Shown here piece after piece: positions 4,465 to 7,292 of a DNA stretch of 7,292 bases. The translations under genes were made by a program, and so were the position numbers. This DNA comes from a bacterium (GTDB lineage: Bacteria > UBP15 > UBA6099 > DSWB01). Under the pieces are notes generated by a model. The model ran no database searches and was not told where the DNA came from. It saw only the letters and a list, made by a program, of their open reading frames with translations. Where the stretch lies: positions 1 to 7,292 of the forward strand of contig JAGUYV010000107.1 in assembly GCA_020061125.1 (NCBI GenBank), given 5' to 3'. Within the stretch, counting starts at the first letter, position 1. Every line of letters starts with the position of its first letter.

Positions 4465-5286
4465 ATGGAAATGACCGCCGGAACAGACATCGGCAGCCTG
4501 GTGCGCGACCAGGCTGTGAAGTGCATCCATCAGGATTTCGACAGTCGTTATGACATGGAGCACATACGACGCGTGCTCGGAACAGAGAATGCGCGCCTGC
4601 TCCAGGGCGTCTCCCAGAACGACATTGACATGCTCAAGCAGTTTTTTTTCAACACCATATACCCGCGCATGGGTGAGCGCGCGGAGCGGGACAAAAGTTT
4701 CGAGTCCATGGTGGCGATGCTCAAGCACCCGTCGCGTTTGGGCCGGTTCATCCCCTCGCTGCCCGTGCTTGTGCTCAAGTATGCGCGGGTATGGCCCACG
4801 GCCGTGAATGTTGGCGTCAACGCCATGATGGCGTACCTGTACTCGCTGCGCATCGAGGAGCTGGTTTCGCGCGAGGCAGTGGCCATCCTCAAGGAACAGG
4901 GGCGCGCGCCGGACGAGCGGTTCGAGATGGACATCCCCCTCTACGAGAAGGCTTTCGTGCGCGTGCCCCTATCGCACAGCAGACGTATGCTCTCCTCCGC
5001 GGTCAAAGTCATGAGGGCGGGCAAAAACCCGGAGCTGGTGAAGACCACGCGCAACATACTCAATGATGTGCGCGGCAATTTCGCGCGCCTGGACAAACAG
5101 CGCCGCGATGCCGGACAGCCGCCCATGTACGAGGACATCATCCGCGCTCTCAACTTCGGGGAAACCGTGCTCAACCAGGTGCAGTCCGTGTTCGGCGCTC
5201 TGGGAGAGGAAAAACTCACGCGCGTTATCCGCATCACCGAAATCAACGAATCCCACCACATCAACACTCTGTACGGTGTTTCATAG
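4465..5286 (+). CDS. Conserved-looking hypothetical protein, 273 residues, probably leaderless
   Basis: I do not recognise this protein. It is open across 273 codons with the same G/C-ending codon preference as its neighbours, and it looks mainly helical and soluble. It has alternating hydrophobic and basic/acidic residues and no signal peptide. Residues 94-128 are the most hydrophobic part (around LPVLVLKYARVW and VGVNAMMAYLYSL), but Lys and Arg interrupt them, so an amphipathic or buried helix pair is likelier than a membrane span. The C-terminal quarter has short helix-like stretches and ends in NESHHINTLYGVS. The start is ambiguous between ATG 4465 and ATG 4471. Neither has a clear Shine-Dalgarno site, and the promoter lies directly in front. 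It is codirectional with the lipid operon, but a functional link is only positional. A run of eight T residues (4642-4649) encodes Phe60-Phe61 and part of Phe62. Confidence 0.8.
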   Translation: MEMTAGTDIGSLVRDQAVKCIHQDFDSRYDMEHIRRVLGTENARLLQGVSQNDIDMLKQFFFNTIYPRMGERAERDKSFESMVAMLKHPSRLGRFIPSLPVLVLKYARVWPTAVNVGVNAMMAYLYSLRIEELVSREAVAILKEQGRAPDERFEMDIPLYEKAFVRVPLSHSRRMLSSAVKVMRAGKNPELVKTTRNILNDVRGNFARLDKQRRDAGQPPMYEDIIRALNFGETVLNQVQSVFGALGEEKLTRVIRITEINESHHINTLYGVS

Positions 5287-5317: not shown

Positions 5318-5354
5318 AAAAAAAGCATCCCCGGCACAAGTGCGCCGGGGATGC
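5318..5354 (-). terminator. Intrinsic terminator of the minus-strand papain-like gene
   Basis: GCATCCCCGGC (5325-5335) and GCCGGGGATGC (5344-5354) form a perfect 11-bp GC-rich stem with an 8-nt loop. On the minus strand the stem is followed directly by seven U residues (the A-run 5318-5324 on the plus strand). It lies 34 nt past the stop codon of the minus-strand gene. No T-run follows the stem on the plus strand, so it should work in one direction only. A second, weaker stem (CGCAAT 5292-5297 with ATTGCG 5310-5315) lies just after the convergent gene and lacks a U-tract. Confidence 0.88.
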
Positions 5355-5388
5355 GGATTGCCGAATGGTTGCTTGTATGACGCGCGAG

Positions 5389-6657
5389 CTACGGCACCGA
5401 CACGGCGGTTTCGCCGCCTTCGTCGCCCAGATTGTCCACCACGGCGCCGTTCACGCGGCAGCCGGGATAGTAGGTTCCGGCGGCGTTGTACACACATGTT
5501 CCGGTGCGGCCTGTTGTAATCGCGGTCCAGGCCCCGACCGAGTCGCAGCGGAACTCGAGCTGCGTGGGCAGCGCGCCTGTCACATCGCAGGTGATGGTCA
5601 CATTCGCGCCGATGCCCGCGGGGTTGGGGCTGGCGGAAATTTCAACGCTTGACGCCTGCACGCCCACGGCCACATCCACGGTGTCCGCCGCGGAATCGTT
5701 CACATAACATGCCGGATAATAGGATCCTGCAAAGCTGTACTGACAGGTCGCGGTGTTGCCCGATGTGATGCTGACCCAACTGTCCAGCGTGTCGCAGCGG
5801 TATTTGAGCGATGTGGGTGTGCTGGAGGGCGTGCATGTGAGAATGAAGGTTGTGCTGGTGTCGCCCGCCGTGGGAGAAACGCCCGCTGTCACGGTAACAT
5901 TATTGACCGGCGGCGTGTACTGGGTCACGGTCACGGCGCTGTCCACATTGTCAATGATGGCGCTGTTCACGCGGCAGCCCGGCGTGTAGGAGCCGGGATA
6001 GCCGTATGAGCAAACGCCTGTTTTGCCGTTCTGCCATGTGCCGACCGTGTCGCACCGGTACGATGCGGAGGTGGGCGTTCCCGTGGTCGTGCAGGTCACG
6101 GTGTAGGAATCATTGGTGGTTCCCGAGGCAGGGCTTACGGATGCGGTGACGCTGACATCCGAGCCGCCGGTCACGGTCACGGGCGTATCCACATTGTCAA
6201 TGGACGCCTGGTTCACGCGGCAGCCGGGAATGTAGGAACCTGCAATGGAGTAGGTGCAAACGCCGGTGCGCCCGGAGGTCCAGGCGTCAACCGAGTCGCA
6301 GCGGTATTCCACGGCCGAAGGCGTGGCCCCCGAAGTGGAACAAGTCACGGTGAAGCCCGTGGTGCCGGCGTCGCCGCTGGATGGGGTGACGGCCGCGGTC
6401 ACGGTAATTTCGCCCACGGTGATGGCCGTGTCCACATTGTCGCTGGTGGCGCTGTTTACGCGGCAGCCGGGGGTGTAGGACCCGGCGGTTGTGTATGTAC
6501 AGGTTTTGGTGGTGGTTCCCGTGGTCATGCTCTCCCAGCCCAGGGCGCTGTCGCAGCGCACTTCGAGCTTGCTGACCGCGCCAGAGGAAATGCAGGACAC
6601 ATCCACCTGCGCGGATCCTCCGGCCAGAGCCAGGGATGTTTCCGAGGCCAGGGCGCT
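5389..6657 (-). repeat. Five tandem modules of about 85 codons, each with four conserved cysteines
   Basis: Counting from the papain domain outward, the units occupy about 6657-6406, 6405-6157, 6156-5899, 5898-5650 and 5649-5389, or 83-86 residues each. Each carries the order VTC ... (Y/F/V)RCD(S/T)...W ... C.Y..(A/P)G(S/T)Y.P(G/A)C.VN ... NVD/TVD, so cysteines recur at 228/241/259/271, 312/326/340/352, 395/408/422/434, 481/494/511/523 and 563/577/594/606. Alternating Val/Thr strands suggest a beta-sandwich of PKD or Ig-like type, and four Cys per unit suggest two disulfides. Units 1-3 are also close at DNA level; the plus-strand 11-mer TCCACATTGTC occurs in all three. Unit 4 is the most diverged (AC instead of GC, YVN instead of RVN). 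The likely role is binding or spacing on the outside of the cell. Confidence 0.85.
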
Positions 6658-7292
6658 GACCGTGGCCGGGTTGCCGCTCACTGTCAGAGCCATGACATAA
6701 TCCTCGATGCCAATTTGACCGTAAGCAACGCGCGCGAACCCGCTCTCGCCCCAGTCCGTGCCCCAACTGTTCTGGATGATCCAGTATCCGCCGGCGTCGT
6801 TATAGCCGATAATGGCCACTGCGTGGCGGCCCTGCAGATCTCCGTAGGCGTGTTTGAAGACGCCGGATTTGTAATAGTAGAAATCCGTGTACACATTGAT
6901 GATGGCCGCCACGGGGCCGTCGGCCAGAGCAGTCTTGATGGCGGTGGTGTCGCCCGAAGCCAGCCATTCCCACGAATCGAGCTTGGTGGTGCGTGTCTGC
7001 CAGTCGCTGCATTTGTTCGCGCATACGCTGTCGCTGGCGGAATATTGCAGGCAGGCCTCGTCCACTACGCCCGCGGTCTGCAGCCGTGTGGCGGCCGAAG
7101 ACATGGTCCACCCCGTAGTGCACGATCCGCCGCCGCACGAGAACAGATCGGCTTCGGAATAGTCTACATTAAGCAATGCGTTGTTGTTCGCCACGCGGGA
7201 AACGGACTCGAACACGGTCAGGAGCGCGAATGCGGCGCTGCTGCCGCACACGCCCTGGGTTTTCACCGCGGGCACCCAGTAGTTGCCGCTGG
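5389..7292 (-). CDS. Papain-fold (C1A) protein with Ser in place of the catalytic Cys, fused to five cysteine-rich repeats (N-terminus outside the window)
   Basis: The frame stays open to the window edge, and residues SGNYW precede a GTG at 7275, so that GTG is not the real start. Signal peptide and any propeptide must lie beyond 7292. Numbering from the GTG codon, QGVCGSSAAFA (7-17) aligns with papain QGxCGSCWAF. The oxyanion Gln (7) is kept, but the nucleophile Cys is Ser13 and the next Trp is Ala14. The catalytic His (GRHAVAIIGY, His151) and Asn (QNSWGTDWGESG, Asn169) are kept, as is the Trp after Asn-Ser. YSEADLFSC and FYYYKSGVF are further papain landmarks. The peptidase-like domain ends near residue 200. 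Five modules (207-628) follow, and the protein ends without an LPXTG, PEP-CTERM or membrane anchor. The many paired cysteines imply export. Activity could be Ser-dependent, silicatein-like, or absent. Confidence 0.87.
   Translation of the reverse strand, partial: SGNYWVPAVKTQGVCGSSAAFALLTVFESVSRVANNNALLNVDYSEADLFSCGGGSCTTGWTMSSAATRLQTAGVVDEACLQYSASDSVCANKCSDWQTRTTKLDSWEWLASGDTTAIKTALADGPVAAIINVYTDFYYYKSGVFKHAYGDLQGRHAVAIIGYNDAGGYWIIQNSWGTDWGESGFARVAYGQIGIEDYVMALTVSGNPATVSALASETSLALAGGSAQVDVSCISSGAVSKLEVRCDSALGWESMTTGTTTKTCTYTTAGSYTPGCRVNSATSDNVDTAITVGEITVTAAVTPSSGDAGTTGFTVTCSTSGATPSAVEYRCDSVDAWTSGRTGVCTYSIAGSYIPGCRVNQASIDNVDTPVTVTGGSDVSVTASVSPASGTTNDSYTVTCTTTGTPTSASYRCDTVGTWQNGKTGVCSYGYPGSYTPGCRVNSAIIDNVDSAVTVTQYTPPVNNVTVTAGVSPTAGDTSTTFILTCTPSSTPTSLKYRCDTLDSWVSITSGNTATCQYSFAGSYYPACYVNDSAADTVDVAVGVQASSVEISASPNPAGIGANVTITCDVTGALPTQLEFRCDSVGAWTAITTGRTGTCVYNAAGTYYPGCRVNGAVVDNLGDEGGETAVSVP

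Follow-up and report, generated by a model that had tools for sequence, protein, structure and literature searches.

A bacterial C1A papain homologue with serine at the catalytic cysteine position: a candidate surface-anchored pseudoprotease

Serine in place of the papain nucleophile

Serine at the position of the catalytic cysteine is already a known kind of variant of the papain fold. The serine-type SERA proteins of Plasmodium contain a papain domain with a serine nucleophile, and in the case of SERA5 protease activity is undetectable and the role is non-enzymatic (PMC4671257). Silicateins, which are sponge cathepsin-L relatives that template silica, also combine a papain fold with a serine nucleophile, and their activity may be independent of the triad (PMC6233156). 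Bleomycin hydrolase and congopain keep partial activity after Cys-to-Ser replacement (PMC10318531). Serine triads are almost exclusively of the N-epsilon type, whereas that of papain is N-delta, and natural serine triads of the N-delta type are extremely rare; for the serine variants of parasites, an adaptation to oxidative stress has been proposed (PMC9825947).

The window analysed here, 7292 bases long, is an entire contig (G000:C219) of a draft genome that is 79% complete and divided into 513 contigs. An ORF at 5389–7290 (minus strand; 633 amino acids), whose 5′-end is open at the contig end, encodes a papain-like domain and five repeats. The papain (Peptidase_C1) domain corresponds to fragment residues 1–205 (6676–7290, minus strand), as judged by Pfam, a predicted structure and Foldseek. 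The Pfam match (PF00112) covers ORF residues 6–200 with an E-value of 2.3e-38, so that both the reading frame and the alignment of the serine to papain Cys25 are secure; a search of NCBIfam gave no match.

The active-site segment of this domain reads QGVCGSSAAF. Ser18, at the catalytic Cys25 of papain, is encoded by AGC (7237–7239, minus strand; gct on the plus strand), and Ala19, at papain Trp26, by the adjoining GCC (7234–7236, minus strand). The oxyanion-hole glutamine (Gln12, papain Gln19; 7255–7257), the histidine (His156, papain His159; 6823–6825) and the asparagine (Asn174, papain Asn175; 6769–6771) are all kept on the minus strand, as are Cys15, Cys52, Cys57, Cys90, Cys94 and Trp176. 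His156 and Asn174 are the residues that the earlier note on this DNA, counting from an internal GTG, had numbered 151 and 169. Translation probably does not begin at that GTG, since in the nearest relative found, a protein of the same order, a signal peptide and a pro-region lie upstream; both are missing from the fragment, and its N-terminus falls beyond the contig end.

A predicted model of the papain domain has pLDDT values mostly above 85 per 10-residue block. In this prediction, Ser18 opens the central helix (residues 18–34), like the nucleophile of papain. Foldseek matched the model to cathepsin S, ananain and silicatein (structure 6zq3) with TM-scores (target) of ~0.8; the E-values to cathepsins were ~1e-12, and C25S mutants of cathepsins were also among the matches. 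Profile and fold together place the protein in the C1A papain family by descent. It resembles the peptidases of that family (PF00112; MEROPS C1A) in its homologous fold, its Gln/His/Asn/Trp frame and its disulfide cysteines, but differs from them in the serine nucleophile and in the alanine at residue 26. Of the residues that define a C1A cysteine peptidase, the equivalents of His159, Asn175 and Gln19 are present and the catalytic Cys25 is absent.

Homologues and the origin of the serine

Homologues were drawn from GTDB contigs, from two samples taken by kinship (98 and 386 genomes), from the whole order, from small phyla around the best matches and from plasmids; several of the phylum searches covered just 1–8 genomes, so close kin are thinly sampled. 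The catalytic column is cysteine in 107 of 107 alignable homologous domains, and in 110 of 110 bacterial and archaeal homologues once the same-order relative and two plasmid homologues are counted. No second domain with serine was found in the whole order, the larger kinship sample (386 genomes), the small phyla, one scan of GTDB contigs or the plasmids, and viral contigs yielded no relatives. A bacterial C1A papain with a natural serine nucleophile was likewise found neither among the homologues nor in the literature searched, a negative that argues only weakly for its absence. The His, Gln and Asn columns are 99–100% conserved across the 107 domains, and the window protein keeps all three.

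The nearest relative found (G003; L135:5085–7595) is about 50% identical in the catalytic domain. In a quick tree built without the trait columns, the window protein pairs with it (SH-aLRT 93), and proteins with a CVAF motif from Rhodocyclaceae, Calidithermus, Kriegella and a Methanothrix bin follow next (SH-aLRT 84), neither support value reaching 95. Like the window protein, the relative has a small residue at position 26 with an aromatic residue near 54, followed by the same repeats. It differs in reading CGSCVAF, with the catalytic cysteine in place, and in having only two repeats, which are followed by a Cys-rich EGF-like stretch and an FGE-sulfatase (formylglycine-generating-type) domain. 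Its N-terminus carries a lipobox-like signal (ALSGCGGGG) and a pro-region. The union of papain and FGE-sulfatase domains in one predicted lipoprotein looks unusual in itself.

The earlier note's description of a papain-fold protein with serine at the nucleophile and alanine for the tryptophan is thus borne out by the codons and the Pfam match, and the 107-domain alignment agrees with it that the rest of the active site (Gln, His, Asn and structural Cys) is kept. The clade with fixed serine that it envisaged was not found: the serine is a singleton among the homologues collected here. The note had further held that close homologues all carrying Cys-Trp would speak for a sequencing error or a lone mutation. 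Every homologue does keep the cysteine, but many lack the tryptophan. Of the precedents it named, the SERA proteins and the silicateins are documented as serine-bearing relatives; for TIN-Ag, a literature search turned up no paper. The window protein shares with both groups a serine nucleophile and a retained His/Asn pair, but not the occurrence of serine throughout a group of relatives. The SERAs differ besides in belonging to eukaryotic parasites, in counting several serine proteins in their family and in their flanking architecture, and nothing in the window suggests silica binding.

Our preferred reading, to which we give a probability of about 0.58, is a surface-anchored C1A pseudoprotease that recently lost its nucleophile through a single-base Cys-to-Ser change and is now non-hydrolytic or nearly inactive but still binds substrate. 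The protein would be an exported, probably lipid-anchored papain homologue whose stalk consists of five PKD/Ig-like modules stabilised by cystines; the lipid anchor is suggested by analogy with the same-order relative. Its ancestor would have been a cysteine-bearing peptidase of the same order, and the serine codon AGC is indeed one base from the cysteine codon TGC. That the loss was recent is our inference, and the nearest relative available for comparison is just 50% identical. Ser18 would sit at the N-terminus of the helix, facing His156, in an N-delta-type triad that deprotonates serine poorly. Proteolysis would then be lost and peptide binding in the cleft retained, with peptides or the pro-region bound uncut and the domain unable to activate itself. 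Intact Gln, His, Asn, Trp and disulfide Cys would be expected if the nucleophile was lost recently or binding has been retained. The inactivity is uncertain because some C1 enzymes stay partly active with serine.

The serine call depends on a single codon of one draft genome, and it counts against a pseudoprotease that one wrong base at this distance from the contig end (53 bases) would abolish the effect. An error in base calling or assembly, or a variant of a minority strain, is unlikely but deserves some weight; the true sequence would then have cysteine, and the protein would be an ordinary active peptidase with a small residue 26 and Phe near 54. Consistent with such an error are the one-base distance between AGC and TGC, the location close to where a short contig ends, in a fragmented, incomplete draft, the cysteine in every relative, the same-order one included, and the otherwise intact active site. 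The earlier note had taken that intact site to be held by selection, but it is equally expected from a recent change or from an error. On the other side, single-base errors in assembled contigs are a priori rare, and the final 53 bases encode residues conserved in the family (NYWVPAVKTQGVCGS), which speaks against a junk contig end; one wrong base would still be compatible with this. A second copy of the contig end, sought in the same genome for an alternative version, was not found, and neither was a further C1 gene there.

Early pseudogenisation, with the serine as a step without selected function, is improbable in our judgement. The window protein departs from consensus at four of the 33 columns that are at least 85% conserved among the 107 homologues, towards the top of the spread seen among the homologues (0–9), and in most other genomes of the order no copy of the gene was detected. 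A decaying gene sits poorly, however, with a 633-codon ORF that has no internal stop or frameshift, with the intact Cys pattern of the five repeats and with the retention of all other catalytic residues. Of the four departures, the Cys-to-Ser one alone affects a column that shows no other variation.

Alternatively, Ser18, His156 and Asn174 could form a working serine-type system, perhaps acting on esters or under oxidising conditions that inactivate cysteine. The Ser/His/Asn/Gln set is complete, the papain fold is kept in the predicted model, and both the partial activity of the C-to-S bleomycin hydrolase and congopain (PMC10318531) and the oxidative-stress proposal for parasite variants (PMC9825947) lend the idea some support. 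Such a hydrolase nevertheless seems a slim prospect: N-delta serine triads are extremely rare, none of the 110 homologues shares the serine, and no compensating change specific to the window protein was found around the site. Negative charge was considered as a sign of serine activity and discarded, as the window domain (-8) and the homologues (average -11.5) are not discriminated by it. A real bacterial C1A protein with serine, if true, would broaden a phenomenon so far recorded chiefly from eukaryotes, and it would provide an easy way to test whether serine can work in papain-type geometry.

Residue 26 and its aromatic partner

The earlier note had treated Ser-Ala as one joint signature, and here the homologues separate the two changes. 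Of the 109 aligned domains, 32, the window's among them, carry Val, Ala, Ser, Gly or Gln instead of Trp26. An aromatic residue (Phe, Tyr or Trp) near papain residue 54 occurs in 28 of the 32 domains without Trp or Tyr at 26, against 0 of the 77 with either (Fisher p ~4e-22, phylogeny ignored); L022 and the G103 proteins are exceptions. Two plasmid homologues outside the original sample, from Deinococcus and Streptomyces, are both CVAF with Phe. The window protein obeys the pairing with Ala19 and Phe50 (7141–7143, minus strand). Loss of Trp26 says nothing about inactivation, because it is widespread in Cys-bearing relatives and paired with the aromatic residue, and the Trp-to-Ala change in the window looks like a compensated pocket swap, separate from the Cys-to-Ser change.

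On the tree, the label at position 26 switches about seven times, with just two contrasts well supported, so that a phylogenetically independent test has only two pairs and is underpowered; repeated origin of the swap is likely rather than proven. In ananain and papain, Trp26 is reported to line the S2 pocket (PMC7658999), and the swap therefore probably remodels that pocket, with residue 54 presumably packing directly against 26. Variants at 26/54 may accordingly differ in substrate preference, and motif searches based on CGSCWAF would under-call them or misread them as inactive. The same reshaping might be thought to let a serine nucleophile function in an N-delta triad, as an exception to the N-epsilon rule, but we regard this as very improbable.

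The CVAF relatives also show a conserved gene order. At four loci, L002 (3317–4996), L004 (3989–5753), L005 (3989–5633) and L151 (1246–3160), a CVAF-type C1 peptidase without an evident signal peptide is followed by a protein of ~117–143 amino acids and then by a chagasin-family I42 inhibitor (Pfam E-values 2e-22 to 3e-13). The middle protein has no Pfam match and ends in -(H/Y)E(I/L/M)Y(V/C)W. Hosts of this cassette are Rhodocyclaceae, Calidithermus, Kriegella and a Deinococcus plasmid, and on a Streptomyces plasmid the I42 gene directly follows the C1 gene. From its gene order, the cassette looks like a protease/partner/inhibitor unit. The adjoining inhibitor gene in several of them suggests that the small-26 CVAF relatives are working peptidases. 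The paired swap and the I42 link are a more robust result than the Cys-to-Ser change.

Four-cysteine repeats and neighbouring genes

The remainder of the ORF consists of five repeats of ~85 amino acids with four cysteines each, which also have invariant Cys, Trp, Gly, Tyr, Pro and Asp positions in common. All are encoded on the minus strand: repeat 1, a PKD/Ig-like four-Cys module, at 6415–6672, repeat 2 at 6172–6411, repeat 3 at 5926–6162, repeat 4 at 5659–5904, and repeat 5, which reaches the C-terminus, at 5395–5658. Pfam, PKD profiles included, returned nothing above cut-off for them. An AlphaFold model of one module (repeat 2, pLDDT 94) is a beta-sandwich whose nearest structures are PKD domains of clostridial collagenases; the match to the ColG PKD domain has Z 9.3 and an rmsd of 2.0–2.1 over 76 residues at 13% identity, with several Ig-like folds scoring nearly as high. 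A profile search of 60 genomes matched three genomes of this order and gave one marginal match besides (E=4e-4), so that the repeats appear essentially restricted to the order within that set. Their most plausible role is that of lineage-specific modules for a surface stalk or for adhesion, and the earlier note's view of an exported protein with disulfide-rich repeats is supported.

Neighbouring genes differ between the window and the same-order relative, and gene order therefore provides no operon evidence. Within the window, a GC-rich inverted repeat (gcatccccggc...gccggggatgc), spotted by eye at 5320–5360, lies between the convergent genes 4465–5286 (plus strand) and 5389–7290 (minus strand) and is probably a terminator shared by both. 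The first of these genes encodes a 273-amino-acid protein without a Pfam match at E 0.001, and it adjoins a diacylglycerol-kinase-like gene.

Elsewhere in the order, the four-Cys repeat occurs in lipobox-bearing exported proteins (L148:620–4318, minus strand; L149; L150; and the same-order relative at L135), fused to subtilase S8, FGE-sulfatase-like or PKD-like domains. In the genome G001, the repeats are found in lipobox-bearing exported proteins, one of which has a subtilase domain; judged by eye from their sequences, another looks PKD-containing and a third looks FGE-sulfatase-like.
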